From: Eublepharis macularius
Lineage: Eukaryota > Chordata > Lepidosauria > Squamata > Eublepharidae
NCBI RefSeq assembly: GCF_028583425.1
Contig: NC_072795.1
Location: 4,983,001 to 5,047,000, forward strand
Length of the DNA stretch: 64,000 bases
Direction: 5' to 3'
Below are positions 1,408 through 49,234 of this stretch, piece after piece. Every line of letters begins with the position of its first letter. The first letter of the stretch is position 1. Made by a program: the position numbers and the translations under genes. The notes under the pieces were generated by a model that had not been told where the DNA came from, made no database searches, and saw nothing but the letters and a program-made list of their open reading frames with translations.

Positions 1408-1423
1408 GAGCCGAAACAGACGT
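1408..1423 (+). repeat. Left terminal inverted repeat
   Basis: Perfect 16-bp inverted match to 18491-18506. It sits exactly at the composition break. Confidence 0.85.
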
Positions 1424-1432
1424 GACGCATTT

Positions 1433-1492
1433 CACGTGCCGTCCACGCGATTGCACTTACACGTGTCTCCAGCGGGTTTTGCTGTTCACGTG
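1433..1492. promoter_or_regulatory. Subterminal CACGTG motifs, left end
   Basis: CACGTG occurs at 1433, 1460 and 1487, spaced exactly 27 bp apart. Further CACGTG copies are near the right end at 18362, 18464 and 18476. Subterminal repeated motifs are typical binding sites for transposase or for the accessory Myb-like protein; that role here is inferred. Confidence 0.55.
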
Positions 1493-1962
1493 CTGCCAGT
1501 GTGTTTCGGAACCCCCCCTACACGCGTTCGCGGTCGACCGTCCACGGGTTCTCGGCTGTACTTCTGTGACGCGCTTCCCTTGGCGCATGCTCACAGGAAA
1601 ATGGCCGAGAAATAGGCCATCAGTTGCTGCACCTGAAGTGGCCGGCAGGTGGCGTCATGCATTGATCGTCACTATAAGTTGGCATCGCGTCATAGCACTC
1701 TATGCGCGCTGTCCGGGTTTGCCGACGCTTGTTGGGGTTTGCTGAAAGGGCTGTTCGAAGTGACGCGGGGTGCCAGCCCCAAGAGCAGCGGGCAGGTCCT
1801 GCACCCGGCATGACCGTTGCCTATATTTTCCCTTAACCTTTGTTGCATGCAGAATGCACACTACACAGTTTGTTTAAAAAGCTTTATTGTTTTCTCTTAA
1901 AAGATTGCATTCATTTTAAAAAACTCCAAACTTTTTGTGTGCCACTCTGGGCCTTGCAAGGG

Positions 1963-2213
1963 TCAACCCAGCTTCTTCGCAGGCCTTGTCTTGTTAGATT
2001 GTCTCTGGTAGAGCCCGCCACACGCTGACTGGCCGCATGTGTGCAGGACCCACGGCTGTGCAGACACCTGTCGGCGTCTCTGGCCTGAAGCACTGGGCTC
2101 CCCGGTCCTGTGCCCGCCGATTCTGTTACGTCTTGAGGGCCGGCTCCCCGCCTGCATGTCCGCCCAATGAACATTTTGCTGACATTCAATTCCCTGGATG
2201 GTCCAATCCACCT
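1963..2213 (-). CDS. Possible 3'-terminal exon of an unplaced minus-strand gene
   Basis: On the minus strand an open frame ends with a stop at 1963, and a poly(A) signal (AATAAA, plus-strand tttatt at 1883-1888) follows about 75 bases later. The peptide, read as VDWTIQGIECQQNVHWADM at its start, resembles nothing I know. No matching upstream exon was found, and the region overlaps the promoter of the plus-strand gene at 2377. I include it because an otherwise unexplained poly(A) signal lies here. It may equally be chance. Confidence 0.2.
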
Positions 2214-2329
2214 TTCTTTGTGGTGGGGGCGGATCTTGGGGTTGCCGAATCGGGGCGCCTCGTGATGATTGACGTGTTCCGCATCCCCTCGGGGTGCGTG
2301 GAGTGTGGCTGTGGACCGTTCGCCGAGGG

Positions 2330-2336
2330 GATATAA
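2330..2336 (+). promoter_or_regulatory. TATA-like box of the left SANT gene
   Basis: GATATAA in a GC-rich setting, 41 bases before the ATG at 2377. The distance implies a very short 5' leader. Confidence 0.5.
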
Positions 2337-2376
2337 CAGTCCTTCCAGACGCGAGCGCGCCGCACAGCGTGGAGCG

Positions 2377-3648
2377 ATGCCGCCTCGTGTCCGAGCGCGC
2401 AGCCCCTGGCGTCGGTTCGAGGTCCACATGCTGCTCTCAGCGATCCTGCGCATGGGCTACGCGGGGGAGCTAATGCGCGGGGCGCGGGCACGTGCACCGC
2501 ACGCCTGGGAGGCGCTCTCCCGCGGCCTGGCGGTGTCGGGCGTCGCACGCTCGCCACAGGAATGCCGTGGGAAGTTCCGCCAGCTCCGGGACCGCTTCCT
2601 GCGCTGGCGCCAGGGGGGTCAGCTCCGACCACCGCCACACCACCGCGCAATGGAGCGCCTTCAGGAGGAGTCTGAACGGTTGGCGGCGGCGGGCCAGCAG
2701 CCGAGAGGTGAGCAGCTTTTCCGCTTTGCGCGCTTTGCGCCGGCCCTGACTTTATTCGCACGCCCCCTTTGCCGGTGGGGGACAAAAAAGAGCGCGGTGC
2801 GCCTGCTTGGCGGGCCAGGGGAGCGCGGCGCTGGAGCTCTGTGTCTTGACTGTTTGCTCTTCTGCAGGGGAGGAGCACGGGGCAGAGATCATATCCGTGA
2901 CCAGTGGAGAGGAGGCGGAGGAGGTGCCGGGCGCGGTTGTCCTCCGTGCGCCGCCATCATCGCCCACCGGAGTGGTGGCGGATACCCCGATCCGCCCTGA
3001 GTCCGCCACAACCATGGAGCCAGGTGGGTCTGCAGGTGTGACACGGATGTGCGGATGAGGGCGGGGGAGGGCTCCCCCCTGCCGCGGCCAGGGCGCTTGA
3101 TGGGCCTGGCGTTGGCAGAAGTGAATTTTTTGCCCGCCCTTGAAATCCCTGAACACATAACGTTTTGTAACGGCACAGACTCATCCGGTTCCAGCGCGGG
3201 GACTTCGCGGGATGAGGGGCGCAGGGCAGAGCTGGAGCGGGAGGATGTGCCCATAACAGTGCGTGGGCAGGTCGCGGTGGAGGCCTGCCTCAGAGTGTGT
3301 AAGTGGGGTGCCATTTCTGCTTCGAGAGGCGGGTGGGCCATCAGGGTTTTGAGCCACTGGCGACGGCGAAGATCTGTGGCTATGTGGTGGCCGCGGTATT
3401 GATCGCCGTGCCGGCAAGATCCATTGTCCTATGTTTCCCCAATGGAGACAGGTGGGGGGGAAGGGAACCCATTACTGGAGATGGGGTGAGATGGCGGGTG
3501 CGTGGCTCTCATTGTGCTCTCTCCTGCAGTGAACCGAACCGAGGCGGCGGTGACCAGGATGGCGGAGGAGATCACGACGATTGGTCAAGCGGTCCAGGAC
3601 ATGCGCCGGGACATGGCCACACTGCTGGGGAGGGGGGGGGGCGGGTGA
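2377..3648 (+). CDS. Trihelix/Myb-SANT-like DNA-binding protein, four exons (left gene)
   Basis: Predicted 241-aa protein from exons 2377-2707, 2868-3023, 3179-3298 and 3530-3648. Every donor is GT and every acceptor AG (donors gtgag, gtggg, gtaag; acceptors tctgcag, ggcacag, cctgcag), all introns are phase 1, and the joined frame stays open to TGA at 3646. Residues about 10-80 look like a Myb_DNA-bind_4 trihelix domain: WRRFEVHMLL, then HAWEALSRGL and CRGKFRQLRDRFLRW. The middle is acidic and Ser/Thr/Pro-rich. The last ~60 residues, with AAVTRMAEEITTIGQAVQDM, look coiled-coil. This layout (SANT head, coiled-coil tail) matches the gene at 6604-7791 and the accessory protein of Harbinger elements, which helps the transposase enter the nucleus and bind transposon ends. 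That role is inferred. An in-frame upstream ATG exists at 2269, but it lies before the TATA-like box. Confidence 0.7.
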
Positions 3649-3707
3649 CGGTGCACACTCATAAAGAGAGCCTGCTGTGATTGGGGTTTGTTCAAGGTTG
3701 TTTTGTA

Positions 3708-3713
3708 AATAAA
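3708..3713 (+). terminator. Poly(A) signal of the left SANT gene
   Basis: AATAAA 60 bases after the TGA at 3646-3648, followed by a T-rich stretch. Confidence 0.65.
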
Positions 3714-3797
3714 AGTTTCTTGTTTCCCTGTTTACAGTCGTTTCGTGAGGAGACACCCCCCACCCCCCACCTCCAGGGGCCACACTACCCTGCGCGT

Positions 3798-5215
3798 GCC
3801 TGGACATGTCCCAAGCTGAGAGGGACAAGGGGCTGGGGAAGCCTTCAGGTGGCTCTTGCCAGGCAGAGGGGGCACACATGGCACCCATCTTTGGCATGCA
3901 GGCTTGCAAAACTTCTCCTTTGAGGCCTACTGGGTGGGTGCCTGGCGTGGGACGGGCGAGAAGCGTGCCTGGACATGTCCCAAGCTGAGAGGGACAAGGG
4001 GCTGGGGAAGCCTTCAGGTGGCTCTTGCCAGGCAGAGGGGGCACACATAGCACCCATCTTTGGCATGCAGGCCTGCAAAACTTCTCCTTTGAGGCCTACT
4101 GGGTGGGTGCCTGGCGTGGGACGGGCGAGAAGCGTGCCTGGACATGTCCCAAGCTGAGAAGGACAAGGGGCTGGGGAAGCCTTCAGGTGGCTCTTGCCAG
4201 GCAGAGGGGGCACACATAGCACCCACCTTTGGCATGCAGGCTTGCAAAACTTCTCCTTTGAGGCCTACTGGCTCTTGCCAGGCAGAGGGGGCACACATAG
4301 CACCCATCTTTGGCATGCAGGCTTGCAAAACTTCTCCTTTGAGGCCTACTGGGTGGGTGCCTGGCTTAGGACGGGCGAGAAGCGTGCCTGGACATGTCCC
4401 AAGCTGAGAGGGACAAGGGGCTGGGGAAGCCTTCAGGTGGCTCTTGCCAGGCAGAGGGGGCACACATAGCACCCATCTTTGGCATGCAGGCTTGCAAAAC
4501 TTCTCCTTTGAGGCCTACTGGCTCTTGCCAGGCAGAGGGGGCACACATAGCACCCATCTTTGGCATGCAGGCTTGCAAAACTTCTCCTTTGAGGCCTACT
4601 GGGTGGGTGCCTGGCTTAGGACGGGCGAGAAGCGTGCCTGGACATGTCCCAAGCTGAGAGGGACAAGGGGCTGGGGAAGCCTTCAGGTGGCTCTTGCCAG
4701 GCAGAGGGGGCACACATAGCACCCATCTTTGGCATGCAGGCTTGCAAAACTTCTCCTTTGAGGCCTACTGGCTCTTGCCAGGCAGAGGGGGCACACATAG
4801 CACCCACCTTTGGCATGCAGGCTTGCAAAACTTCTCCTTTGAGGCCTACTGGGTGGGTGCCTGGCGTAGGACGGGCGAGAAGCGTGCCTGGACATGTCCC
4901 AAGCTGAGAGGGACAAGGGGCTGGGGAAGCCTTCAGGTGGCTCTTGCCAGGCAGAGGGGGCACACATAGCACCCATCTTTGGCATGCAGGCTTGCAAAAC
5001 TTCTCCTTTGAGGCCTACTGGGTGGGTGCCTGGCGTAGGACGGGCGAGAAGCGTGCCTGGACATGTCCCAAGCTGAGAGGGACAAGGGGCTGGGGAAGCC
5101 TTCAGGTGGCTCTTGCCAGGCCGAGGGGGCACACATAGCACCCATCTTTGGCATGCAGGCTTGCAAAACTTCTCCTTTGGGGCCTACTGGCTCTTGCCAG
5201 GCAGAGGGGGCACAC
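3798..5215 (+). repeat. 169/250-bp minisatellite array, left
   Basis: Units start with gcctggacatgtcccaagc at 3798, 3967, 4136, 4386, 4636, 4886 and 5055. Spacing is therefore 169, 169, 250, 250, 250, 169. The 250-bp units carry an internal duplication of 81 bases beginning gctcttgccaggcagagg. Units are more than 95% alike by eye. The many overlapping ORFs here are a side effect of the repeat and are not taken as genes. Diverged copies lie inverted at 15690-16420. Confidence 0.95.
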
Positions 5216-5344
5216 ATAGCTTACAAGCTTGCTCTTTTCTCCCCTAGGGCCAAGCTGGGCACCAGGGGGGGGCCTGGGTGGACCTCCGTCAGGAAAGGAG
5301 GGGCTCGTGGGACGCCTGTCGCCATGGGCGGGAGCATCGTGCGG

Positions 5345-6040
5345 AAAAGGACAAAATGCGCATGCGCGGTCGGTTGATCAGTACTCCAACCGCCCACGTA
5401 TGCGCACACCGGGTTCGAACGCGGGGCGCCATAGGCAGTGGGCGAGCGCCGTGCGCACTGCCCGTGGGGCCCCGCTAAGGGTAGCTGGTGCTATTCGGGC
5501 TTATCTCTCGCCCTGTAAGGGGGGGCCGGCCTCGGCCAACAGAGACCCCGGGGAATGGGGGGGCGTGCCCTGGGGGGGAAAGGTCCAATCGGTTAGGGGG
5601 GGGAGGGTCTGCAAATCATTTGTTTGGATTGGCGGGAATTTGGGGGCGGGAATGAAGTGAACCAAAAATGTTTCCTGCAGCTTAAAAGTGGCAACCATTG
5701 GGCAATTAAACGGGAAAGGAGCCAATGGGCAATGAGCCCGAGGAAGCCATCACATCACCCCGTGATGGGGCTTTGGGGGGTCGGTGTGTGTGCTTGCTCT
5801 TTATTCTCCCAACCGCGTTCCCTCACTGGCCCGGGGGGGGGGCCGTCACGGTGCAGGGTGGCGACTGATAAAAGTGCACACGCGTGGATGACTGCTTGAA
5901 TGTTGCGATCATCCACGTGTGTGCACTGCGGATTCGAACGCGGAGCACCGATGACAGTGAGCGGGCTACTTGTTCACTGGCCGCGGTGCCCCGCCAAGGG
6001 CAACGGGTCTATTCGGGCTTATGTCATGGCCGGGAAGGGG
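5345..6040. repeat. Two related ~180-bp units with box-B-like motif
   Basis: Blocks at about 5350-5530 and 5865-6040 share the order: paired sequence around an ATGCGCA or GTGTGCAC core, then gttcgaacgcgg or attcgaacgcgg, then gccccgc-aagggta/caacgg, then attcgggcttat. The TTCGAAC piece resembles a Pol III box B, but no convincing box A or cloverleaf is visible. Function unknown. Confidence 0.55.
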
Positions 6041-6260
6041 GGCGTTCCCTCGGCGAAGTAGGAAACATAACTTTACATGTATTGTTCTCTGATAAAATGG
6101 GCAGGGAATGGGGGGGGAGGGCGCGCTTCCTTGCAGAAGGAGGTGAGGCAGCGTAGTTTGGGGTGGGGCGAAGTGAATGTAAAAGGGAGGAAAGACTTTT
6201 TCCCCTTTACCAATCCCCAGAGTTTGCTAGAAAGACAAGCAAAGCGGTCGTGAAAGTTTC

Positions 6261-6266
6261 TTTATT
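6261..6266 (-). terminator. Poly(A) signal of the second SANT gene
   Basis: Minus-strand AATAAA, about 340 bases beyond the stop codon at 6604-6606. Confidence 0.55.
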
Positions 6267-6603
6267 CAGGAAAAAAAACATGGTGCGCTCAATTCAAGCA
6301 AACATTAGAAGTGCTGGAGCACAAGTCAACGAGGGTGGTGCTGGATAACAAGCAACCGCCCCACAGCCGCCACCGGTTAGAAACAAAAAGTAACCCCCTC
6401 AACATTGGGAGAACACATTAATAGGAATGCCCGATAAGACGATTAGACCCCGGTGCAGAGGGGCCTCATACACCCTACAGCCGGTAGCGTCGTGGTGGGC
6501 AGCGCTGCCTTTTTGCAAACAGGTAGCCCCTAGGAAGGGGTTCGGGGTCGGCCCGGACACGGAACCTCTTTGCACGTGGAGCGGGCGGCTCCGGCGGCCG
6601 GTT

Positions 6604-7791
6604 CTAATCTGCGGCGGGATCCGCCGTGGGAGCGTGGTCGGGAGCGTCGGCTGTGGGGGCGTCACCGTCTGCGGAGTCCCTGGGGCCGGCAGTGCTTGAT
6701 GGTGGGGCAGCGGGGGCCTCAACCGCGGAGACCATCCTCTCCAGGAGGCGCACCATGTCGCGCATGCAGCTTTCTGCCGTGGCTGCTTGGCGCTCTGCCG
6801 CTTCGACCGCCCGGCTAAACAGTTCTTTTTGCTCGCCTCGGTCAGCAGCCTCACTCTGCCGCGCCTCCTTCTCCATTGCGCAGGAGTCGGTCAGCTCCGA
6901 CGATATTTTCTCCACCGCACGCCGAGTCGCCTCCATGCACACGATCGCCTCGTTGCGCGGGCGCTCCCGGCGCCGAAGTCGGAGGTTCGACATTCGCTCC
7001 GCCGGAGACAGACGGCGTGTCCCGGCGGCCGTGGTGTCGGCTGGGTAGCGTGTAAAGAACGAGGGAGACGGTGTTAGATGGGGGCCTCCCTCCCGCGGGC
7101 ACCCCGCATTCCCGACCGCACAACTGCCCACGGGACATTACTCACCGATGGTCTCTGCCGCGGAGTGGTCGCCGGCCGCTGCTGCCACAGATCGATCTGG
7201 GAGGCAATCGCCGGCGGGCTCCTCGAAGGTGTCCTCGGTGTCCTCCGTTCCAACGCCGGCCACATTGTCAGTACCCCCCTCCGGTTCCCCCTCAGTGGCT
7301 CTGGCCGAACGTCGACGCCGGTCAACGACGGTTGGGGGGACGCCAGTGCCCATCACCCGTGGCACCACCAGATCCTGCTCCAGACGCAGGAACCGGTTCA
7401 GTTCCTCAAAGAAGGGCCAAACCCTCCGCCCGTGTCCCGAACGACTGTTCCCGTCCACACACTCCTTGTAGCCCCTTCTCAGAGTCTTCGCCCGCTCACG
7501 ACACTGCTCCCAGTCCCTGGGGAAACCCCTGGCCGCCATCTCGTTCGCGATCCACTGGAACTGGCTCACATTCCTGTAGCTTGCGGAAAGCCTGCTCTGC
7601 ACAGCGTCGTCCCCCCAAATCTGGATGAGGGCTCTCGTTTCCTCGTCAGACCAGGGGGCGGCCTTTGCCTTCTTGCCTCGGGCCGCCGGGACCACCGAGA
7701 GTCCGGCACCGGTGCAGGACGTGGGGCTGGTGCTGAGGGTGATCAAGAGAGGCAGACTGCTTGCGGGTTCGGGAGGCGTGGTGGAGTCCAT
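6604..7791 (-). CDS. Myb/SANT-like Harbinger accessory protein, two exons
   Basis: Predicted 360-aa protein. Exon 1 is 7791-7146 and exon 2 is 7040-6604, with a 105-bp phase-1 intron (donor gtgagt, acceptor ctacccag). Residues about 46-135 form a Myb_DNA-bind_4/SANT domain: APWSDEETRALIQIW, then RNVSQFQWIANEMAARGF and WEQCRERAKTLRRGYKE. After an acidic linker, exon 2 encodes a Glu/Ala/Arg-rich coiled coil (KELFSRAVEAAERQAATAES and on) and a low-complexity Ala/Pro/Asp tail. It is divergent from the transposase with 306 bases between the start codons, the gene pair expected of a PIF/Harbinger element. By analogy the protein binds transposon ends and recruits the transposase. Start chosen as the first ATG of the open frame. 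Confidence 0.8.
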
Positions 7792-8097
7792 GTTGCGGTT
7801 GGTCGTTCAGGGTGTCCTTTGCTGGGCTCGGGAGCAACAAACGATCGTCAACGGCGGTCTTCGCGGTCAGTTTCGGGCTGCCTTTACAGTAAGTTGGAGG
7901 GGGGCGCGACGCTGACGTGGCCGGCAGGGGACCAATCGCCTGTCCACTCGCTGCAAGAGACGGCTGCTCGAGAGCATCTGGGCGTCACACTCGCGCGGCA
8001 TTGGACAGTGTCGGCCACGTCACGAGGGGGCGGGGGGCGGACGTCTAAGGAGAAGGGGCCGTTGTGGGGCGGGAACCGTTGCGGTCGCCGTCACGCC
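7792..8097. promoter_or_regulatory. Bidirectional promoter between SANT gene and transposase
   Basis: The region holds an inverted pair, TGACGTGGCCG at 7913-7923 and its exact complement at 8012-8022. Each arm is accompanied by a CCAAT box pointing inward or outward (accaat at 7931, attgg at 8000). This symmetry fits a shared divergent promoter. The CRE-like TGACGTGG and the GACGTG/CACGTG theme recur at the element ends, so self-regulation by the encoded SANT proteins is possible; that is inference. Confidence 0.55.
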
Positions 8098-9423
8098 ATG
8101 GCGCCCGCTCACGGGAAGAGGAGCAGCAGGGGCCAGCCGCCGAGAGAAACACTCCGTGCCTTTGCGGTCGCGCTCTCCTTGTTCGCGCGGACGGTCATCC
8201 GCTCTACGGCTGCCACAGCTGACACTGTGGCCCTGCTCGGGAGGCAGCTGGGAGAGGAAGTTAACGGCCGCCGCGCGCGACATAGAAGAAGACTGCGGCA
8301 GTTGGTGGCAACACTTGCGTCCGTGGAGGAGATGGCGCAGTGCTTCATTGTTGCTTTCCCGCCGAGGAAGGCATGGGTGCTTCCCCGGGCATGCCCTCAC
8401 TGGTGGCCATGGTGGGAGCGCTACGAGTTCAGTGACGGGCAGTGGCTGCAGCAGTTCAGAATGCGACGTGCCACGTTCGAGTACATTGTTGGGGAGCTTC
8501 GCGAAGACCTCGTCCGCGAGACGACCCACATGCGCGACCCAGTCCCTCCCGAGGAGATGATCGCCATCACCATCTGGAAGCTTGCCACGGGAACCACAAA
8601 CTCCGCGACACTGCCCGCATTTGGCCGTGGCGTCTCTACCGTCTGCGGGATATTCGACGAGGTCTGCGAGCTCATCGCTGCAAAGCTGACCGAGAAGTGG
8701 ATCTGCATCGATTACCTCGAGGACATTATCTCCGGGTTCGAGGAGAGGGGATTCCCCAATGCCTGGGGCGCCGTGGACGGGACACACATCGAGATCCGTT
8801 CTCCGCCTTTCTCTGGGGACAAGTACATCAACCGCAAGGGATACTGCTCCATGATTCTCCAGGCGGTGGTGGACAGCGATGCACGATTCCTGGACATTTT
8901 TGTGGGCTTCCCGGGAAGGGCGCACGACGCGCGTGTGCTCCGTAACTCGCCCCTGTTCAAGAGACTCGAGGATGGCGCCCGTCGCCCGAAGCGGCCGGTC
9001 ACTCTGGAGGGGGTCACATTCGACCCGGTAATCATCGGGGACCCCGCCTATCCTCTTCGGCCCTGGCTCATGAAGCCCTATCCGGCGCCATCAACGCGCG
9101 CCCAGGAGCGCTTCAACTACAGACTGAGCCGGGCGCGCATGAGTGTGGAACGCTCGTTCGGAATTCTGAAAAATCGCTGGCTTTATTTACAGCGGCCCCT
9201 ACTTGTCAGCGAGCGCCTCATGGTCGCGGTAATCACCACCTGCTGCATCCTTCACAACATTTGCCTCTCGCGCGGGGACATCGTTTACGGGCCGTTCCCG
9301 CGCGAGCCGCTGATGGAGCCCGGGGATGAGCGGCCGCAGATTCCCTGGTCCGAGGCCGCTCTTACCGCGCGGGCAGTATCGATTCGTGCCGCCATAAGTG
9401 CGCACTTCCAGCAATACCGATAA
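8098..9423 (+). CDS. PIF/Harbinger DDE transposase (HARBI1-like), intact
   Basis: 441-aa protein, the usual length range for Harbinger/HARBI1 proteins. The C-terminal half is a DDE_Tnp_4 nuclease domain. Catalytic residues visible are D227 in WGAVDGTHIEI, D315 in IIGDPAYPLRPWL, and E351 in RMSVERSFGILKNRW, giving 35 residues between the second D and the E. The family motif FVGFPGRAHDARVLRNS is also present. The N-terminal part (MRRATFEYIVGEL, then IAITIWKLATG) is the helix-turn-helix-like region typical of the family. The frame is open upstream to 7078, but the ATG at 8098 is preferred because it lies beyond the divergent promoter and gives the family's usual N-terminus. No frameshift or missing catalytic residue is seen, so it may be active. 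It should cut at the terminal inverted repeats of the surrounding element with help from the Myb/SANT protein. Confidence 0.92.
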   Translation: MAPAHGKRSSRGQPPRETLRAFAVALSLFARTVIRSTAATADTVALLGRQLGEEVNGRRARHRRRLRQLVATLASVEEMAQCFIVAFPPRKAWVLPRACPHWWPWWERYEFSDGQWLQQFRMRRATFEYIVGELREDLVRETTHMRDPVPPEEMIAITIWKLATGTTNSATLPAFGRGVSTVCGIFDEVCELIAAKLTEKWICIDYLEDIISGFEERGFPNAWGAVDGTHIEIRSPPFSGDKYINRKGYCSMILQAVVDSDARFLDIFVGFPGRAHDARVLRNSPLFKRLEDGARRPKRPVTLEGVTFDPVIIGDPAYPLRPWLMKPYPAPSTRAQERFNYRLSRARMSVERSFGILKNRWLYLQRPLLVSERLMVAVITTCCILHNICLSRGDIVYGPFPREPLMEPGDERPQIPWSEAALTARAVSIRAAISAHFQQYR

Positions 9424-9426
9424 TTC

Positions 9427-9432
9427 AATAAA
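9427..9432 (+). terminator. Poly(A) signal of the transposase
   Basis: AATAAA four bases after the TAA stop codon (9421-9423). Confidence 0.75.
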
Positions 9433-9510
9433 GCTGTGACCGGTACAGCCGGTTTCAGACTGTGTGTCTCTATCCGGGGCGGGGGGTGGGATGGTGGTGA
9501 GGCGGGCTGA

Positions 9511-9650
9511 GGGACAGCATCTGTGTGTTTGGGCGAGCACGGGGGAGGGGGGCCGCGTCGAAGGTGGTGGTGGGCGGGGGGCGGGCGGGCGGAGGAACAG
9601 CATCTGTGTGTTTGGGCGAGCACGGGGGAGGGTGGCCGGGTCGAAGGACT
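9511..9650 (+). repeat. Two-copy ~83-bp direct repeat
   Basis: The phrase acagcatctgtgtgtttggg occurs at 9514 and 9597 with similar GC-rich sequence after each. From here to 10770 I see no gene, only a (GT)n microsatellite at 10330-10352. Confidence 0.7.
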
Positions 9651-10773
9651 GCTCTTTGGTGCCGTTCGGTGCCGTTTTAGGCAGAGGACCCCATGGGCAT
9701 GAGGATAGAACGACGGTTTTGTGCTCATGGGGATCCTCGCTCGATCCTGGGCGACCCATCACGGTCGCGGTTTTTTGGTTTATTGCCGGGGAGAGGCCTC
9801 TAGAGGCTAGGCTGGTGCTTGGACCGCCCGCCTGACCGGAGTTAGGGCAACCCTCTACATGCTCTGACTTTTATTTTTCAAGAGATCGTGCTGTTGCAGC
9901 CTGGCGGTTGCTCTGGCCTGGGGGCGGGAACCGCTTCGAGTTGGGGTTCACACGGCATACCACGGGGTTGGTTTGCTGTGTGTTCCCTATCCCCAGGTCC
10001 CATTCCGACCGGAGCATACAAATGGATAGAGACACACACAAAAAAAACCCATCATGGAAGACTTCACCCCAAAATGTGTCTCAACCTATAATGATGTTTA
10101 AAATCGTCTCTTGCTAAGCAAAGTCCAGCTCCCGGGTAGCCGTTCTTAAAATAACCCCACCCCAAAATTGCTTCTAGTCTGGCTTTCACTAGATTCCAAC
10201 AATTTCCTGAAACTTTATATACCATTGATAAATATCTAGCAGTCACTCTTTATAACACCTAATGAGTTCATTGCGCTGTTTGGTCACCTGAATTAAACAT
10301 GACCCCCTCATAGGGTTGCGGCAAACTGTTGTGTGTGTGTGTGTGTGTGTGTGCGCTTGCATGTGACATTTTGGTTTAACAAAACAACTATAAAGAATTG
10401 GCTCAACTGCATGAGGTAATCATATTTTCTTTGGGCAGAATCTCCCACATTTGGTGACATGGAAAACCAGCAGACTCCTCACTAAAGGCAAATCTGGAAG
10501 CTGCTTGCAGGGAGAGTTCTCACAGGAAGGGCCCGGGGGGAGCCTTGACTGTGCTCTGGGCCAGGAGCGGGAGCACACGCCTGGGATATTTTCCGGGAAA
10601 TAATACAGAGGGGAGCCTGGTTGGCAGGCCTGGGAGCAGGGACACAGAGCTGGGATTACTGGGGGTGGCACATACAGCCTACTGGGCTTCGCTTTGTGTG
10701 CGCCTTTCAGGATGCCTGGTGCTCTGCTAATGTCCTTTACCAAGAGATCGGGAGGGTTGCGTGAGGGCCCTCC

Positions 10774-11491
10774 CTTATTCAGAGCCAAATTCGAAGGCCA
10801 GGCTGTTGGATCTTTAGTCTAATCCGGCCTGGTCCGGGCATTGCTGCACGAAATTTACCCACAAAGGAGTGCAATGGTGAGAGTCCCGGTTCCACGTGGA
10901 ATCGGGGCCCTCCACCACCCTGCCGGCCACAGTGCAGCAGCAGGGCCATGTGGGTTTTCGGCGGCGCCCATGGAGATGTGGCGACTACGCCGCCTGCACA
11001 CCACGCAGCGATCGTGACGTTTCAGTCATGGTGGGCGCCAAGGCAAACCGCAATCCAGCCTCTCCGCAGCCTTGTGAAAGCCCAGGTGTGCTTGCAGCGG
11101 GGAAAGAATGTGCTGACTGTGCCTGCTCCTGCCCGGCGCCCGCCCAACCATTGCAGCTACTCTGCTCCCATGTTCTCTGCTCTCAATTTACATACGAATA
11201 AGCGGGTTGGCCAGCCAGTCATCCAGGCTCCGCTCCACCCACAGGACTTCCCCACCCAGGCCTACTCATGGTGATGGCTTGCCCATTGTCTGCGCCCTTC
11301 CTTTTGTGACTGTTTTGTCGGGCCCCCGCGGGGGCCCTAAGCGTTGTTTCGTCTCAGCAGAAGCTGAGTTCATGGGTGGGCATATGACCGCAAGCATTTT
11401 TCGAGCTCGCGAGAAAGCCTTCTCCACGTGGAAACGGGGCTCTCACCAAACCGCCACATAGCGCGGCGGTCGAATTTGGCTCTGAATAAAG
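10774..11491. repeat. Nested ~720-bp element or fold with inverted ends
   Basis: cttattcagagccaaattcg at 10774 matches the complement of 11471-11491. Further in, tggtgagag-cccggttccacgtgga near 10873-10897 matches the complement of 11422-11444. No gene is recognisable between the arms. It may be a non-autonomous element inside the large transposon. Confidence 0.5.
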
Positions 11492-11934
11492 AAGTCGCCC
11501 TCATATTCCCCGTTTTAACGCCCACAGGCTCCATCCCAGCCCTCTTGCGGTCAGGTCACGGGTGCTCGAGGCTGCGTGGCGGATGCCAAGTTTCAGCATC
11601 GGGCGAAGACGAGGGGATGGTGCTTGGTCGGTTATGGGCTGAAAAGCCTTACTTTTCGGGGCGCACACCGGTTAAATACCGGCAGTACCGGGCGGATAGG
11701 CGTGCGCTATAGGAAAAATCTGCATATTCCTTCCCAGCCTGCCGTTTCTCGGGGGAGGGGGAGGACTCTCCCCACCACTGTTCCAACGGAGCAGGTTTCG
11801 TTCGGGGGATCAGATGGGCGCGCGGCAAGAGGGATGGCTTTGAGTCCATTGTGATCCCCGTTCGATTCTTGCCTGGCCCGCATCGCCTACTTCTTTTTTT
11901 CTGGGGCCCAAGTTGCTGTGCAGGCAGTGTGATT

Positions 11935-14879
11935 TGCACATGTTTCCACGACAGGCATGCCCTGGCCGCGCCCCGGGGACCTCTCTTTTGTCCTTCAGAT
12001 CACTCCTGCGAGAAAACACTAGCCTCTCATTGAATTTGAACGACTGGCCAGCCGCGGCCTCTGCTCTCCAAATCTTCCTTGTGTCCTGTCCTGCTTCTCC
12101 CTCCCTGCCCCCCCCGATCACAACATGGAGGACACAGGCCACTTCGGGGAGACTTGGCGAAGGACTCCCCAAACCCCCCTGCCGTTTCTTTTCTCCTGAC
12201 TTTGTGTTTGAGGCACAATTATAGGACTTGTAGGAGAGATTTGCCTTGTGCCAAGAGTGGCGGAGGGTTTCCGGTGATGCCTGCCGCGGGGCTCTACCCT
12301 GAATAAGCGACCTGGCACCTGGTTCCAACAGAGCAGGAACAGGTTTTGGGGGGCAGATTTTGCATGTTCTCCTCTCAGGGCCGCAAGTTGGTTTGCGGGC
12401 CGTTTCATTTGCACATGTTTGCGCGACAGGCATGTATTCGACGCGCCCCAAGCGCCACTCCTTTGTCCTTCATATTTCCCTTTTGTGCGATGCAAGGCTG
12501 AAGTCATCCGATGTTAACATGCGCTCTGCCTCTCCCCCCCTGAATTCCCTCCCCGACGGTCGCAGCCGAAATATGCATGCTATCAGAAGGGACTGCCGCA
12601 CAGGAGTCCCGTAGAGCAACAAGCAGGAAGGCCTGCTTAGTGCCCTGGGACTCCTTGTTCGAGCCCCGCATCGCCGCCCGCCCGGCCCGCCTCCCTTTTT
12701 CGCGTCTGCTGAGACCGACGGGTGGGAACCGCGCTGGCGGCCGCCGGTGTCCCCATGAATTTTTCACCGACCAGGGGGGGGGGCGCGATTCTCCAAATCT
12801 TCATTGTGTCCTGGCCCTTTGGCAAGATTTGCACATGTTTCCGCGACAGGCATGCCCTGGCCGCGCCCCGGGGGCCTCTCTTTTGTCCTTCAGATCACTC
12901 CTGCGAGAAAACACTAGCCTCTCATTGAATTTGAACGACTGGCCAGCCGGGGCCTCTGCTCTCCAAATCTCCCTTGTTGTCCTGTCCTGCTTCTCCCTCC
13001 CCGCCCCCCCCCCCGATCTCAACATGGAGGACACAGGCCACTTCGGGGAGACTTGGCTAAGGAGTCCCCAAACCCCCCTGCCCCCCCTCTTGTGTCAATA
13101 TTGAGCCAGAAAAGGGTTTGCTCCAGGCCTTCCCATGCCTGGGGAGACAGGGCAGGGCCTTGCATGGCTCTTCCCAGCCATGGGCCGGCGGAGAAAGGAG
13201 CAGCCCTGCCAGATCTGTGTTCCTTCCCACCCCCCGCCCAAATCCAGGGTGCTGGTTCCAGGCCCTTGGGCCAGATCACCCCCCAGGTGTGCCCTGGACC
13301 TCATGTGCCAATATTGAGCCAGATAAGGGTTTGCTCCAGGCCTTCCCATGCCTGGGGAGACACGGCAGGGCCTTGCATGGCTCTTCCCAGCCATGGGCCG
13401 TTGGAGAAAGGAGCAACCCTGCCAGATCTGTGTTCCTTCCACCCCCCCGCCCAAATCCAGGGTGCTGCTCCCAGGCCCTTGGGCCAGATCACCCCCCAGG
13501 TGTGCCCTGGACCTCATGTGCCAATATTGAGCCAGAAAAGGTTTTGCTCCAGGCCTCCCCTGCCTGTGGAGACACGGCAGGGCCGTGCATGGCTCTTCCC
13601 AGCCATGGGCCGGCGGAGAAAGGAGCAGCCCTGCCAGATCTGTGTTCCTTCCCACCCCCCGCCCAAATCCAGGGTGCTGCTTCCAGGCCCTTGGGCCAGA
13701 TCACCCCCCAGGTGTGCCCTGGACCTCATGTGCCAATATTGAGCCAGAAAAGGTTTTGCTCCAGGCCTCCCCTGCCTGTGGAGACACGGCAGGGCCGTGC
13801 ATGGCTCTTCCCAGCCATGGCCCGGCGGAGAAAGGAGCAGCCCTGCCAGATCTGTGTTCCTTCCCACCCCCCGCCCAAATCCAGGGTGCCGGTTCCAGGC
13901 CCTTGGGCCAGATCACCCCCCAGGTGTGCCCTGGACCTCATGTGCCAATATTGAGCCAGAAAAGGGTTTGCTCCAGGCCTTCCCATGCCTGGGGAGACAG
14001 GGCAGGGCCTTGCATGGCTCTTCCCAGCCATGGGCCGGCGGAGAAAGGAGCAGCCCTGCCAGATCTGTGTTCCTTCCCACCCCCCGCCCAAATCCAGTGT
14101 GCAGGTTCCAGGCACTTTGGCCAGATCACCCCCCAGGTGTGCCCTGGACCTCTCATTGAATTTGAACGACTGGCCAGCCGCGGCCTCTGCTCTCCAAATC
14201 TCCCTTGTTGTCCTGTCCTGCTTCTCCCTCCCCGCCCCCCCCCCGATCTCAACATGGAGGACACAGGCCACTTCGGGGAGACTTGGCTAAGGAGTCCCCA
14301 AACCCCCCTGCCCCCCCTCTTGTGTCAATATTGAGCCAGAAAAGGGTTTGCTCCAGGCCTTCCCATGCCTGGGGAGACAGGGCAGGGCCTTGCATGGCTC
14401 TTCCCAGCCATGGGCCGGCGGAGAAAGGAGCAGCCCTGCCAGATCTGTGTTCCTTCCCACCCCCCGCCCAAATCCAGGGTGCTGCTTCCAGGCCCTTGGG
14501 CCAGATCACCCCCCAGGTGTGCCCTGGACCTCATGTGCCAATATTGAGCCAGAAAAGGTTTTGCTCCAGGCCTCCCCTGCCTGTGGAGACACGGCAGGGC
14601 CGTGCATGGCTCTTCCCAGCCATGGCCCGGCGGAGAAAGGAGCAGCCCTGCCAGATCTGTGTTCCTTCCCCCCCCCCCGCCCAAATCCAGTGTGCTGGTT
14701 CCAGGCACTTTGGCCAGATCACCCCCCAGGTGTGCCCTGGACCTCTCATTGAATTTGAACGACTGGCCAGCCGCGGCCTCTGCTCTCCAAATCTTCCTTG
14801 TGTCCTGTCCTGCTTCTCCCTCCCTGCCCCCCCCCCCCCGATCTCAACATGGAGGACACAGGCCACTTCGGGGAGACTT
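11935..14879 (+). repeat. Higher-order satellite block (213-bp and ~173-bp units)
   Basis: Unit A is about 213 bp. It begins at caatattgagccag: 13096, 13309, 13522, 13734, 13946, then 14326 and 14539. Unit U is about 135-173 bp. It begins tctcattgaatttgaacgac at 12025, 12920, 14151 and 14744, and separates the runs of A. A further direct repeat (cacatgtttcc-cgacaggcatg) precedes U at 11937 and 12834. Long overlapping ORFs here come from the repeat and are rejected as genes. Confidence 0.9.
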
Positions 14880-15073
14880 CCCCCAAATCCAAGTTGTGTG
14901 TGTGTTCCAGCCCCCCGGCAAGAGCACCCTCCAGGCTTCCCCAGCACCTTCTGTTTAAAGATTATCGCAGAAAATGGGTTCCCAAAACATGCAGACATGC
15001 TCAAAGCGCAACCCGTTTCCGGATCCAGGACATGTGTATTCAGTGTGCGGAGCCTGTTAAGTTTAAACATAGC

Positions 15074-15079
15074 TTTATT
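15074..15079 (-). terminator. Poly(A) signal of the right-end gene
   Basis: Minus-strand AATAAA, about 62 bases beyond the stop codon at 15141-15143. Confidence 0.6.
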
Positions 15080-15140
15080 TTGCCGACAGACAGGGCTCAC
15101 CATGGCAGGCGGGAACCCCAGGCCCCCTGTGTCCATTCAC

Positions 15141-17588
15141 TCAACTGTCCATCGAGCCAGACGGCCCCCCCCTTCGACGGCCAAGCACCTGGGCAAAGCT
15201 CGGGACACGCGAGAATGCCCTAACTCTTTTTGGCGATGGTGGACGCGGGGTCGAAGTCCCAGGCTCTTCGCAGAGTTGCTCGGGTGCGTGCGGTCTTCCA
15301 CGCTGAGTTGCCGCGAGAAAGGCGGCAGGAGACATCCCACCATCCAGCAGGTCAATCTCCTCCTCCTCCTCCTCTTCCTTCCCCGCAGTGGGGCCTGCTG
15401 TCGGGAAACCAATTGGAAAGCAATAAGCAGTCTTTGCCCCGACCAACCATACTACTGAGCATTGTGGAAACACCGACCAAAGCCCCCATCTAGGCGCCCT
15501 CTGTCGACCCAACAGTGACCTCGCAGCGCCCAGTGGGCCGCCATTAGCCACTTACTCCAAAACTGGTCCCGGCGTGCCTGGATTCTCTCATGGGCCAACC
15601 CCACAGCCTCCATCCGTCGCTCGGTGTCACTGGCTGAAAGAAAGGCGGTGTAACGATTAAGGAATTTCAATCGGTTGGTGATGCCCATCCCCAAACCTGC
15701 AAGCCGTGTGTCCCTTCTCCCTGGCAATCGCCACCCCCAGCCTTCCCCAGCACCGCTTCTGTCATATTGGGGGATGACCGGGCCCGCTTCTCTACCGACC
15801 GTAAAATTGTCTGGACACGCTTCTCGCCCGACCTATGCCGAGTGCAAAAGTGGAACTTGCCCGGGCATGCTGCCGGCCCAGACCATGCTCCGCTTTAGCC
15901 AGCTAGGCCTAGAGAGGAGAAAGGAGCAAGCCTGCAAGCTATGTGGACCCTCCCCAAACATGAGTGCTATCTCCCTGTCAGTTCCACGCTCCAGGCTGCA
16001 CCAGGACACACAGCGTGCATATCCGCTGGACTCTTGTTGGTCATATTGGGACGTGTCCGCGCACGCTGCCGGCCCAGCCCATGCTCCCCTTTAGCCAGCT
16101 GGGCCTCAAAGGAGAAGGGAGCAAGCCCGCAAACTGTGCGGCCCCTCCCCAAACATGCGAGCTGTGTGTCCCTTCTCCCTGGCAAGAGCCACCAGTAGCC
16201 TTCGCCAGCACCTTTTGTTGACCTATCCCCAGCACCCAGAGTATAAAAGTGGAACTTGCCCGGGCACGCTGCGAGGCCGCAGGCCAATGTCCCCCTTTGG
16301 CCAGCTAGGCCTCAGTGGAGAAAAGAGCAAGCCTTCCAGCTGTGCGTCCCATCCTCAAACATGAGCGCTGTGTTTCCCAGCTGTCTGGCAGCTCGGCCTG
16401 CGCCTGGCGCCACACAATCGGCTGTACAGTCGGTTTGTTGATGTAATATTGCCTCTGACAAGCAGAGCTTCAGCCTTTTGTTTATGCTCACTTCTGTATC
16501 ACCATCAATTGCTGACCATAATCATTATAACCATTAGATATCATTTTAATATTTCACAGTTTATTCAATCCTGTTAAGAGCAAGCACAAAAGAAATCAGC
16601 TCTTTAAAAGTTCTCCTTTTGGAGGTTGGGTGTAAAAAAAAGCATATAAAACCTGCATTGGTACTGCTGCATAGTCCTTTACCTAACCTCTTTCCAAAGT
16701 GCAGAATCTTGTGATCTCAATCACATTCTTCAGATGGTAGATGCTAAAATAGCATGCCACACCCCAGAACTTCCTATATAGTAAAACGCACACAAAAGTT
16801 TTAACACTGGAAGCTCTCTATCTTGCTTCAGGAGGTAGAACCATGCAGGCAATGTACTGTGCACTGAGCCCGGCTTCTACTGAAATCAATAGAAATGCTT
16901 TTCTAGGTTGTGGGACACTTGGGTGCAGACAGGATTTCTGGAACTCAGCGGAGAACCTAACTTTGGAGTGCTGACCAGCCAAATACCAGCTGGTAGAGCT
17001 GTGACTGACCCAAGGCCATGCAGCTGGCTTCAAGTGGAGGGGTGGGGATTCAAACCTGGTTCTAATAAAAATAACCGCGCTGTGCGGCCGCAGGCCAATG
17101 TCCCCCTTTGGCCAGCTAGGTGTCAGAGGAGAACAGAGCCGGCTTGCAAGCCGCTAGGCTAGGCCTCAGAGGAGAATAGAGCAATGGAGCTTGGGCCGCC
17201 CAACAGAGAATATAGTTTGGGCTGCCCAAGCACCTGGAGATCAAAGGTGTAACATTCCTTGGCCCGCTGCAGAACACTGCACCCATCGAGGAACAGCTTC
17301 CGGGGGCCGCCGCCCACTTGTTTCTTGACCAGACTTACTTCGTGGTCGCTCGCCCAGAAACTCCTTCTCCACCATGTCGACCTCGATGTCCTCCACCACA
17401 GCGGTCAAGTTCCTGCGGACCGTGTGGGCGAGATCGACACGGTCAGGGAACAGCGACTCCAGGCGGAACGGCACCATGGTCTCCTCCGCCGCCTCCCGCT
17501 CGTGCTCCGTCAGCCCCTTTTCCTCCATGGCCGCGGCCGCCTGCTCCGCCCACTCCTCACGCCAGTTGCTTGGCACCCACTCTGCCAT
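15141..17588 (-). CDS. Unknown three-exon gene near the right end (cargo)
   Basis: Predicted 194-aa protein. Exons are 17588-17339, 15633-15556 and 15397-15141. Introns are 1705 and 158 bp, both phase 1, with donors gtaagt and gtaagt and acceptors ctttcag and cgacag. The last acceptor is a tandem NAGNAG site, so one residue may be optional. Exon 1 begins MAEWVPSNWREEWAEQAA and is acidic, probably helical (DLAHTVRRNLTAVVEDIEVDM). Exon 2 encodes SDTERRMEAVGLAHERIQ. Exon 3 starts with a run of seven Glu, then a Pro/Arg-rich tail ending in SMDS. I recognise no family. The perfect splice consensus, kept frame and poly(A) signal argue that it is real. In position and strand it mirrors the left SANT gene. 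Alternatives are a third accessory factor of the transposon or captured host sequence. An ATG eight codons upstream (17612) is also possible. Confidence 0.6.
15690..16420 (-). repeat. Diverged inverted copies of the 169-bp minisatellite
   Basis: Three degenerate units lie in the opposite orientation to the array at 3798-5215. Shared pieces include ggcctcaaaggagaag (16098), ccttctccctggcaagagcc (16171), cttccccagcacc (15740) and a ccgggcatg/cacgct piece. They are inside intron 1 of the right-end gene. Another fragment lies at 17084-17195. Confidence 0.75.
16996..17060 (-). mobile_element. tRNA-derived SINE fragment inside the transposon
   Basis: gagctgtgactgacccaagg followed by cagctggcttcaagtggagg matches the full SINE at 29272-29541. 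It sits in a ~620-bp less GC-rich stretch (16440-17060) that separates two copies of ggccgcaggccaatgtcccc (16273 and 17084), as if inserted or spread apart. Confidence 0.7.
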
Positions 17589-18361
17589 GCTTTGCGACGA
17601 TGGCGGAGGCACGTCTGGTCGGCAGGGGAAGCCTCACGAGTTTGCGGGGGTTTGCGCGGGCAAACCAACCGCACAGCCAATTGCGTTGCACCACGCGGAG
17701 GCCGAAAGCTGGTTGGTCGTAGCCGAAAAAGCGGGAATCGGTGACACCGACCGGGTCAATGCGGCAGGTCAAGAGCTGATCAAGCCCCCCCCCCAATTCC
17801 TGGGGCCTCTGAACGGAAAACCAGACGCAGCCGTGATGGGGTCCCCCCGGAGGCACCAGGGGCAGTGCGCCCCTGGATTTTGGGCAAGAAAATTTTTTTG
17901 GACAGACATGTCTTAGACCTCGCCCGTGCACTCCCCCCAAGCCCTGGGCGGGCCCTGGGATTTCGGAAAGTCCCGTGTGTGTGTCTCACAAACATGTTCC
18001 ACCCTCCCCAAGTGAAGACATGTCTGTGTTTGCCTGTGTTTGTCAAAGGCATGCCCCCCCCAGTGGACAAGCACCAACCAACGGACAGGGCCCCCCGCCC
18101 CGCTTCGAAGCCCTCAGGCAGCCGGGCAAGATCCCGGAGTGCGGGGGGGAGCCAGGGGGGCCATCTCTGACAGGAAGCCAAACAGTCATCCAATCTTTTG
18201 AGGCCCGCGTTGGAGGCCCCCGGACCAGTCCATTGCGCGTCACCTGCTCGCTCGCAAGCTGCAGGCAATAGCGCCATCTAGCAGTCATTGAGAGGTCCAC
18301 AGCCCTCGGGATGGTAAAAATAGCCGCTCTGTTCTGGGAACTCGCTGGTCGTCAGGAGGGG

Positions 18362-18490
18362 CACGTGCAGACGCGGACACACAATCACAGGTCTGGTGCG
18401 GGCAGGACACGCGCCGAAATTCTGAAACAGCCACGGGCGGGCCGAAACAGACGGGAGCGCGGACACGTGCGCAACCACGTGTAGTTCTTA
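18362..18490. promoter_or_regulatory. Right subterminal region with CACGTG and TIR-like repeat
   Basis: CACGTG occurs at 18362, 18464 and 18476. GCCGAAACAGACG at 18441-18453 repeats the core of the TIR in inverted orientation to the right TIR 50 bases away, so the end can form a hairpin. Confidence 0.55.
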
Positions 18491-18506
18491 ACGTCTGTTT
18501 CGGCTC
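18491..18506 (-). repeat. Right terminal inverted repeat
   Basis: Exact complement of the 16 bases at 1408-1423. Confidence 0.85.
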
Positions 18507-18712
18507 AAATTCATCAGTTGTGTATAAACTGGGATGAGAGTGAATGGAAATGGGAGAATTGGAGGTGTTTGTTGGGCATATTTCCCGGTCTCCATGGAAA
18601 CTGATGTGTTGTGAGTGTGAAGTAGATATTCTGCCCAAAAACGTGCAATTATATCTTGAACATGTTGATGATTCTAATAGCTCAATCTTCATCACAGATT
18701 TCAGGCTGAATT

Positions 18713-25956: not shown

Positions 25957-26510
25957 TGTGTGTGTGTGTGCATTATGTGCCGTCAAGTCGTCTCCGACCT
26001 ATGGCGACCCTATGAATGAAAGACCTCCAAAACTTTCTATCTCGAACAGACCTACTCAGATTCTGCAAACGGGAGGACGTGGCTGCTTTTATTGAGTCAA
26101 ACCATCTCGTTTTAGGTCTTCCTCTTTTCCTGCTGCCTTCCACTTTTCCCAGCATTATTGACTTTTCCAGAGAATCTTGTCTCCTCATGATGTGACCAAA
26201 GTATGATAGCTTTAGTCTTGTCATTTCAGCTTCTAGGGAGAATTCAGGCTTGATTTGATCTAGTCCCCACTTATTTGCCTTTTGGGCTGTCCATGGTATC
26301 CGCAAAACTCTCCTCCAGCACCACATTTCAAATGAATCAATTTTCTTCCTGCCAGCTTTCTTCACCGTCCAACTTTCACATCCATACATGGCAACGGGGA
26401 ACACCATAGTTCAGATTATCTTGATCTTGGTTCCCAGAGAGACCTCTTTATCTTTAAGGATCTTATCTAGCTCCCTCACAGCTGCTTTTCCAAGTCTCAA
26501 TCTCAGTGCA
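25957..26510 (-). mobile_element. BovB LINE 3' fragment, opposite orientation
   Basis: The longest BovB piece here. Minus-strand translation of 25973-26407 gives MVFPVAMYGCESWTVKKAGR, SFEMWCWRRVLRIPWTAQK, then SLEAEMTRLKLSYFGHIMRR and SFIHRVAIGRRRLD. Homology to the family continues to about 26510. The (TG)n tail is at 25959-25970. Confidence 0.9.
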
Positions 26511-38899: not shown

Positions 38900-40330
38900 T
38901 GTAAAGGCGAAAGAGATTTGCGTGTGCGGCTGTGTCAGCTCTCGGCGTCCTTGAATGACTCTCCTATCTGTAAAGCCTTTCCAGTGAAAAGGGCGCAGCC
39001 AAGGGGGTCTTGGCCGAATATTGCCTGGCTCAAAGCAAACTTCTGCAGTTTCCTATTGGTCGGCGGCTGCCATTTCCAGCCAGGAAAAGGGGCAACAACG
39101 TCCCCCCCCCCGAGCCGCGCCAATCCGCTCCAGAGAATTAACCCCCAACCCACCCCAGACCCCCAGGCCGCCCTGCCCCAGCCCCGTCCCTCCGAACGCG
39201 AGCGGCACTTGGCTGGTCTGGCGGCTTGTCCTGGGCATCCTCCGGCCGGGATGCAGGAATGGCTGGACCACTGGCGCATCCCGTCCAGAGCGCCGGCCGG
39301 CCAAGCTGCGCAGTCATCGCGGCCCGTTATATAATGCGGGGGGGGGGGATTAATTCTTGGCGGGGGGCGCCTGTCCTCGCCCGGCCACCGGCTCCTGCCC
39401 CGCTCGGCGTTAACCCCTCGTTGCCCGGGCCGGCTGCTGCTTCGCTGCGCATCGCTGAAGGCAGGGCAGCAGCGAAGGCCCCTGCAAGAAGCCCCCTTGC
39501 CCACCGCCCACGGCCGCTTACGCCCCACCCGAGGGGGCCGGGAGAAGCAGGCGGGAGCCCGGCAAGTCCAGGGTTCGAGGCCCCTTTAAGGGGAGGTGGA
39601 GCGGGCGGAGCTCGGGCGAGGAGGGAAGGGAGCGACCGACACACGCTCCGGGCGACTTTGGAGTGGCGCAGCGGCCGGGGGCGCCGGGAGGGCGGCCGGG
39701 GGGGCGCCAGAAAGTGGCCGGAAGGGGCCCCCGAGGGGCGAGGGCGGCTTGGAGGGGCAACTCCTGGGCGATCCAGAAGGGGGGCAGTGGGGAGGGGGCT
39801 GCGAGGAGTTAAGGCGAGGAGTTAAGGCAGCTGGGCCGAGGGGCGCGCGCGGGTGGGGGGTTCAGGGGTGCCAACTTTGGGAAAAGGTGCGCTGAGGAAG
39901 GGGGGTCTTGGGGGAGGGGGTCCGGGAGAAAGAAAGAAGGATCGGGAAGGGCCGGGGGTCTGGGGAGGGGGGGCGCTGGGCACGGTGCAGGGAGGAGGGT
40001 CCCGGCTGCCAGGGAGAGGGAGGCAGGTGCCCACCCCCCACCCCCGGGCTAGATCAGAAGGTGGGGACAGATTGCAAAGCGGGGCGCTTGGTCAGGGCGA
40101 GGTTTGTCGGGCCCAGCTGTGAGAACAGGAGAAGGGGCTGAGGATATTCTGAAGAGGAGGGCCGGAAAAGCCGAGTCGGGGCCAGGCAGCAGGCGGAGAG
40201 AGTTCTGTATCAGCAAGGGGCTCTTCGGCTAGAGGCAGTAACAGATCAAGGCAGTAAATCGCACCGGTCTTTCGGGGTGGGGGGTGGAGGGGGCTCCGCA
40301 GTAGCTTTGCCCGAGCCATCCGGCGCCTGG
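38900..40330. promoter_or_regulatory. CpG island with TATA-like box, likely host promoter
   Basis: Very GC- and CpG-rich DNA without interspersed repeats. TTATATAATG at 39327-39336 sits in CG-rich sequence. Several GGGCGG boxes are present. It resembles the 5' end of a vertebrate gene. Strand is not certain; the + strand is favoured by the ORF at 40333. Confidence 0.5.
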
Positions 40331-40332
40331 CA

Positions 40333-48680: not shown

Positions 48681-49234
48681 TGCACCAGGTTGATGTTGAT
48701 TGTTCGCAGTGTTGGCACAGCAGACATTCCAGATGCCGATGCTACATAGCTGCCCCCCATGTGACTGGATGCCCATTTACCCATTGCTTACTTTCCAGCC
48801 CTGTTTAAGGCTTTGGCAACTGCGTGAGCTCCCCGACCCCCCTGCTTTGCAGCAAGTCCTGAGTCTCCCTCCGTGATGCCTCTAGCAAACGGTGCGAGTG
48901 TATGGGTGGGGCAGTTTCTGTTTTTCGGAGCACTGCTGTTTCTCTGTAGGCCCAGCTGTTGCACAGATGTGCCCCAGAGCACTTCCTTTTCATCTCTTGC
49001 TCTTCCTCCCTTTGTTCGCCTTCTGCTTTTCAAGGCACGGCTGGGGGGGCCGCGTGCCGTGGCTCAGAGCTGGGAGTTGGATCTCAAAATGCCTGAGAGC
49101 AGGGGTGGGGGATCTCAGGAATTCATGTATTTATTTATTTTTATTTATGTTATTTATAGTCCGCCTTTCTCACTGAGACTCAAGGCAGATTACACAGTGT
49201 GAGATTAGTACAATCAGTATCGAGGACATTTCCA

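Follow-up and report, generated by a model that had tools for sequence, protein, structure and literature searches.

Genes and borders of the element

We analysed a window of 64,000 nucleotides (C6:4983001-5047000) of the 2.24-Gb genome of the leopard gecko Eublepharis macularius (G000) and found that its positions 1408-18506 are a complete 17,099-bp copy of a repeated DNA transposon. The element carries four genes, termed A to D, between short terminal inverted repeats (TIRs). This copy and six others compared with it share their ends, are flanked by 3-bp target site duplications (TSDs), have all four genes open and are nearly identical in sequence. We consider it very likely (probability of about 0.92) that the element is a very recently active and most likely autonomous cut-and-paste Harbinger (PHIS) transposon that has been enlarged to 17-26 kb. 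A preceding sequence-only reading of the window had described a sharply GC-rich block, edged by a perfect 16-bp inverted repeat and holding a catalytically complete transposase and three spliced genes, and each of these points was borne out by the results below.

The GC content is 0.598 within the element and 0.378 in 400 flanking bases. The left TIR (1408-1423, + strand) and the right TIR (18491-18506, - strand) are exact inverses over 16 bp, and the longer arms 1408-1438 and 18476-18506 are 84% identical over 31 nt. Taken alone, an inverted pair of 16 bp is unremarkable, about 0.5 such pair being expected by chance in 64 kb according to our estimate. However, the exact 16-mer has 286 matches in the genome (148 on the + and 138 on the - strand) as compared to a single one for a reversed-pattern control; a chance origin was thus ruled out and the TIR can be taken as real. 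A third copy of the terminal 13-mer lies in direct orientation at 18441-18453, about 50 bp inside the right end; in the portion of it that was compared, E1 and E3 have a one-base change. The two TIRs are bordered by the TSD AAA at positions 1405-1407 and 18507-18509.

Gene C (8098-9423, + strand) consists of a single exon encoding a DDE transposase of 441 amino acids (DDE_Tnp_4, 6.3e-35). In an alignment of 15 rows, one of them the query, the catalytic residues D315 and E351 are invariant and D227 is nearly so. The closest protein, E. macularius LOC129323443, covers 73% of the query at 99% identity; of the 120 relatives listed among 335, the remaining 119 do not exceed 47% identity, and no match to this open reading frame (ORF) was found among solved structures. 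Gene B (6604-7791, - strand; exons 7791-7146 and 7040-6604) encodes the usual Harbinger Myb/SANT protein, of 360 amino acids (Myb_DNA-bind_4, 7e-22). Gene A (2377-3648, + strand; exons 2377-2707, 2868-3023, 3179-3298 and 3530-3648) encodes a second Myb/SANT protein of 241 amino acids (Myb_DNA-bind_4, 1.7e-10). A recent duplication relating A and B was considered and rejected (best BLASTP E-value 0.13). Gene D (15141-17588, - strand; exons 17588-17339, 15633-15556 and 15397-15141) encodes an orphan protein of 194 amino acids. The spliced models of A (four exons), B (two exons) and D (three exons) each end in a single terminal stop, and a poly-A signal lies downstream of each of the four genes. 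The exon models of A and B are based on splice signals and on what is conserved between copies. The junctions of D recur in one gecko gene model, isoform X2 of LOC129344153, with a NAGNAG shift at exon 3 as the exception and with the last residues of that protein in another frame. Copies of genes C and D stand in the annotation as uncharacterized gecko genes.

Seven giant copies with matching target site duplications

Among the first 100 of the 286 places of the 16-mer, six further +/- pairs were found 17.6-26.2 kb apart, and all six were compared with the window copy. The seven giants measure 17,099 (window), 17,636, 19,961, 23,197, 26,215, 18,067 and 20,368 bp. Ends, gene order and the four open genes with their splice dinucleotides are common to all seven, and the flanks differ copy by copy. 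The outer 60 bp are identical on the left, and on the right they show one base difference. In 7/7 giants the 3 bp on either side match exactly (AAA, ATA, TAT, TAT, TGA, TTA and TTA), an outcome reached in 0.065% of 20,000 trials when flanks were permuted among copies. The sequence-only reading had proposed that further copies with the same TIRs, their borders and the 3-bp duplication should be sought, all of which were found in this genome, together with an empty site, of which a short paralogous example was found for one copy. For copy E5, the joined flanks (one TTA kept) match window positions 49129-49171 across the junction, with 84% identity over 44 bp; this interspersed repeat without the element constitutes a short paralogous empty site, and as such is supportive only. 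No match through the junction was detected for the other six giants in the sequence compared, which was a part of the genome.

These comparisons bear on a different explanation, according to which a GC-rich block, either satellite or segmental duplication, received or carries an ordinary 4-kb Harbinger made of B and C, the distant TIRs being fortuitous or belonging to neighbouring miniature inverted-repeat transposable elements (MITEs). The weakness of 16 bp as a signature speaks for it, as do five of 11 close transposase loci without the exact right 16-mer and the presence of the TIR on short elements of 660-735 bp (M1-M3), which makes such TIRs common. It does not account for both ends and the internal order being common to seven copies that sit in different flanks and all show a matching 3-bp TSD, nor for the three short pairs resembling the giant in their first 20 bp only. 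For the seven copies it is refuted by the TSDs directly outside the 16-mers, and we regard it as very improbable. The possibility that pairs of MITEs had been mistaken for one element was likewise ruled out for these copies by the TSDs and the common interior. The short pairs M1-M3, whose interior differs from that of the giant, look like MITEs using the giant's ends. The short elements at L001-L008 and L025-L027 have the giant's TIR with another interior and are MITE-like; L003-L008 also have a common outer flank, as if one MITE had been copied inside a larger repeat.

Copy number, recent movement and coding capacity

A search of the genome with the transposase gave 95 matches at E ≤ 1e-20, which is a lower bound as 95 of 1,847 candidates were scored. 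Of these 95, 42 (the window's own among them) reach 98% identity or higher across residues 1-439 or a longer stretch, and 40 of the 42 are free of stop codons. Among the best 30 loci the transposase is open in 28 and gene B in 29; locus L057 lacks gene B, its left array extending as far as the transposase. Within the portion of the genome that the 16-mer listing spans, all 11 transposases with at least 98% identity have the exact 16-mer in the correct orientation 6.8-10.9 kb upstream, and six of the 11, which are the six giants compared, also have it downstream. Two transposases at C11:19101060 (-) and C11:19119839 (+), both 100% identical to the query and in opposite orientation 19 kb apart, represent nested or neighbouring insertions. 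A separate Harbinger-like family with 43-45% identity was also noticed (C9:100169531, C4:69278931, C4:164578162 and C14:37755273), with 481-aa open frames in 4/4.

Over about 12.6 kb of non-array sequence, the pairwise divergence of the seven giants ranges from 0.06 to 1.0% (21 pairs), and copies so nearly identical indicate very recent movement. A second group of eight loci (L049-L056) shows 99.5-99.9% mutual identity over 4.3 kb, and the CpG observed/expected ratio is 0.80 in the core and 1.05 in the transposase vs 0.22-0.37 in the flanks. Divergence, second-group identity and CpG ratios all point to recent movement.

The C-termini of the proteins vary among the giants. B is five residues longer in the six other copies than in the window copy; in E1 it lacks one codon near residue 208 with the frame kept, and the 138 differences counted for this gene are the product of a position-by-position comparison. 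A varies at its C-terminus (241-247 amino acids), and D measures 194-196 amino acids, its last residues being changed in two copies. Synonymous/nonsynonymous codon changes among the seven copies amount to 4/4 for A, 5/4 for B, 10/6 for C and 1/4 for D, corresponding to per-site nonsynonymous/synonymous ratios of 0.36, 0.27, 0.19 and 1.23, each based on few changes. From these ratios C looks constrained, and A and B perhaps are as well.

Tandem arrays and end motifs

Two tandem arrays surround the B-C core. The left array (3794-5190, listed on the + strand) is composed of 169/250-bp units and spans 1.46-3.12 kb among the seven copies, and the right array region (11900-14880, + strand) is composed of 212/213-bp units in larger blocks and spans 2.58-11.65 kb. 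Elsewhere the lengths of the copies vary by no more than some tens of bases, so that the arrays explain nearly all length variation among the giants. The left array unit resembles, in inverted orientation, right-side stretches at 14.9-16.2 kb (69-85%).

Near the left end, the motif CACGTG is present three times, at element positions 26, 53 and 80 (window 1433-1492), identically placed in 7/7 copies, and three more occur in the last 250 bp before the right end. When the ends of the window element were shuffled, six CACGTG were reached in 0 of 5,000 trials. These spaced motifs beside the TIR look like putative binding sites.

A smaller sister element with two genes

A transposase at C6:114846241-114847407, 67% identical to that of the giant over 417 amino acids, belongs to a sister element (L061-L063) of 12,641 bp with the TSD ATA/ATA, found in one copy. 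Its TIR of 29-32 bp begins GAGCAGAAC, and 11 of the first 16 bases are as in the giant (0.15% of shuffles). Another candidate for its start, a TIR-like string close to its gene B, was dropped once this TIR was found. CACGTG occurs at positions 26, 37, 53 and 131, and two further motifs lie close to the right end. The sister encodes the transposase and, on the opposite strand, a homologue of B (two stretches at 69% and 47%), flanked by a 130-bp tandem array and its inverted counterpart. Neither A nor D was detected in this one copy by tblastn at E ≤ 0.01. The sister element suggests an order of growth in which the arrays came first and the two genes A and D followed. A 12.6-kb two-gene sister and a four-gene giant stand in one genome; their end motifs are conserved, and their arrays vary in length.

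Foldback-type elements have TIRs built of tandem repeats. The inverted tandem arrays near both ends recall this organization, clearly so in the sister element, with the difference that a short conserved Harbinger TIR encloses the arrays of the gecko elements.

Relation to known Harbinger elements and giant transposons

Teratorn and Polinton are virus-transposon hybrids, and the size and gene number of the gecko element fall within the range of such hybrids. A viral origin of this kind, as opposed to a Harbinger that grew, appears even less probable than the satellite-block explanation, to the point of being negligible: no PolB, capsid or other viral Pfam family was found in A, B, C, the gecko model of D and three further ORFs, which make up part of the element's ORFs, and no relative of the transposase was found in viral contigs, where three single 16-mer matches were taken as chance. 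As to size, Smith et al. are said to have described in 2012 a vertebrate Harbinger, that of the coelacanth, which is larger than usual yet smaller than the gecko element.

The published systems enter the following comparison through excerpts of the cited papers, to which all statements about them refer. Judged by its sequence, the gecko element is a member of the Harbinger (PHIS) superfamily, a normally small type that would have been enlarged. Its transposase can be aligned over the catalytic DDE domain with the residues D, D and E, and the second gene with a Myb/SANT domain, present in most PHIS groups and absent from ISL2EU and Spy, is represented by B and also by A. The AT dinucleotide TSD and the YqaJ domain of ISL2EU are not seen here: the TSDs are of 3 bp, and YqaJ had no match in nine ORFs, nor in A, B, C or the gecko model of D. 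Autonomous PIF/Harbinger elements average about 4,124 bp, have mostly two ORFs and generate a TWA TSD (PMC4482050), in agreement with the earlier statement that known Harbingers usually have two genes in a few kb. The gecko element has in common with them the DDE transposase, the separate Myb/SANT gene, the 3-bp TSD and a short TIR starting with G (16 bp perfect, PIF/Harbinger TIRs being mostly shorter than 60 bp with A or G as the usual first base). It differs in its mixed TSDs and in having four genes over 17.1-26.2 kb in the seven copies, although two genes in about 4 kb is a norm and not a strict criterion. A 3-bp TSD is present in 7/7 giants, in the one sister copy and in one of the three short pairs. 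The PIF/Harbinger type given by the sequence-only reading hence stands as regards superfamily, Myb/SANT gene and 3-bp TSD, whereas the strict TWA is seen in only 2/7 giants (TTA); the TSDs are AT-rich, and the wider TNA, the classic Harbinger target (PMC12477816), fits 3/7.

In teleosts, the Harbinger transposase and Myb-like gene are both needed for transposition in vitro, the Myb-like protein binding the ends and aiding import of the transposase, which excises the element (PMC9179366). Both genes are present in the gecko element as well; the teleost system has two ORFs, and the excerpt contains no mention of a second Myb gene, an orphan gene or arrays. Harbinger-Snek of sea kraits is likewise a lineage-specific burst of an autonomous Harbinger in a squamate, horizontally acquired, likely from a sea urchin (PMC10379679); the excerpt of this paper, which treats Eublepharis and Harbinger, does not report the gecko giant. 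A Harbinger expansion is described in the newt, with no giant reported in the excerpt (PMC5741667). Giant DNA transposons of more than 10 kb with extra genes include Polinton, KDZ, EnSpm and Sola-1 (PMC6431247, PMC12477816), the last three being those named in Ectocarpus (PMC12477816). The gecko element resembles these and Starships in exceeding 10 kb and in carrying extra genes, and differs in transposase superfamily; neither 'Harbinger' nor 'PIF' appears in the main text of the giant-transposon review PMC6431247. The giants named in these texts are members of other superfamilies. The earlier suggestion of an undescribed giant lineage holds for size, extra genes and arrays; its novelty applies to the open-access literature searched, in which no Harbinger of this size was described, subscription papers, preprints and Repbase lying outside the search.

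Proposed mechanism and the role of the additional genes

By analogy with Harbinger biology, the Myb/SANT protein B would bring C, the DDE transposase, into the nucleus and onto the element ends, where the spaced CACGTG motifs beside the TIR are the putative sites reached. C would then excise the element and insert it with a 3-bp stagger at AT-rich sites. Growth may have begun with tandem arrays placed in inverted orientation around the B-C core, followed by the addition of the second Myb/SANT gene A and the orphan gene D. Our working hypothesis, and the reading we find most likely, is that A and D assist the transposition or expression of so long an element, with A possibly serving as an extra end- or array-binding protein.

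Almost as likely, at somewhat short of even odds, A and D were acquired as passengers or from the host and have no part in transposition, B and C alone moving the element. The sister copy with B and C only fits this possibility. No homologue of A was found at E ≤ 1e-3 among 7980 candidates in the protein search, and the sole relative of D in a search of 5.8e9 proteins is the gecko LOC129344153 isoform X2 (97% over 96% of the query), so that both lack relatives outside the gecko in that search. D moreover shows no sign of constraint and could therefore be a passenger. No Pfam domain above cut-off was found in the gecko model of D, and a single-sequence fold model of this protein (P0121; predicted local distance difference test score of 55) is helical where ordered and too poor for a fold search. 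A helper role is favoured instead by the Myb/SANT domain of A, which is of the class that binds Harbinger ends, by the bias of its few changes to synonymous ones per site, and by A and D being open with splice sites kept in 7/7 copies, young though these are.

Several observations weigh against a recently active, autonomous four-gene giant. A small number of copies could mobilize many others in trans. Five of the 11 close transposase loci are without the exact right TIR, a changed right end or truncation being possible, so that not every copy is shown to be whole. Only one of the three short TIR pairs has a matching 3-bp flank, and the empty site of E5 is a single AT-rich match of 44 bp at 84%. 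Outside the Myb domain no relative of gene A was found, D gives no sign of constraint (one synonymous and four nonsynonymous changes, tiny numbers), and the sister's lack of A and D is based on one copy and on tblastn at E ≤ 0.01.

DNA transposons are thought to become less efficient with length (PMC6431247). We tentatively propose, as a possibility we would not put at even chances, that a gecko clade passed the usual size limit in two steps: inverted arrays would first have expanded inside the TIRs, giving a 12.6-kb element with two genes, and recruited Myb/SANT and orphan genes would then have made transposition efficient at 17-26 kb, yielding the first PIF/Harbinger known to be giant, autonomous and mobile at present. 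With the two-gene sister and a young four-gene giant of 17-26 kb in one genome, how a small cut-and-paste element becomes a giant is a testable question in a captive-bred vertebrate.

Other features of the window

A second GC-rich block (68-70%) at 39001-41000 contains short tandem repeats, has no TIR match and lies outside the element. Two ORFs on the - strand, at 817-1188 and 25976-26410, lie in copies of one repeat (86% DNA identity), the first lying about 200 bp to the left of the element; they resemble what we take to be the end of a retrotransposon reverse transcriptase.

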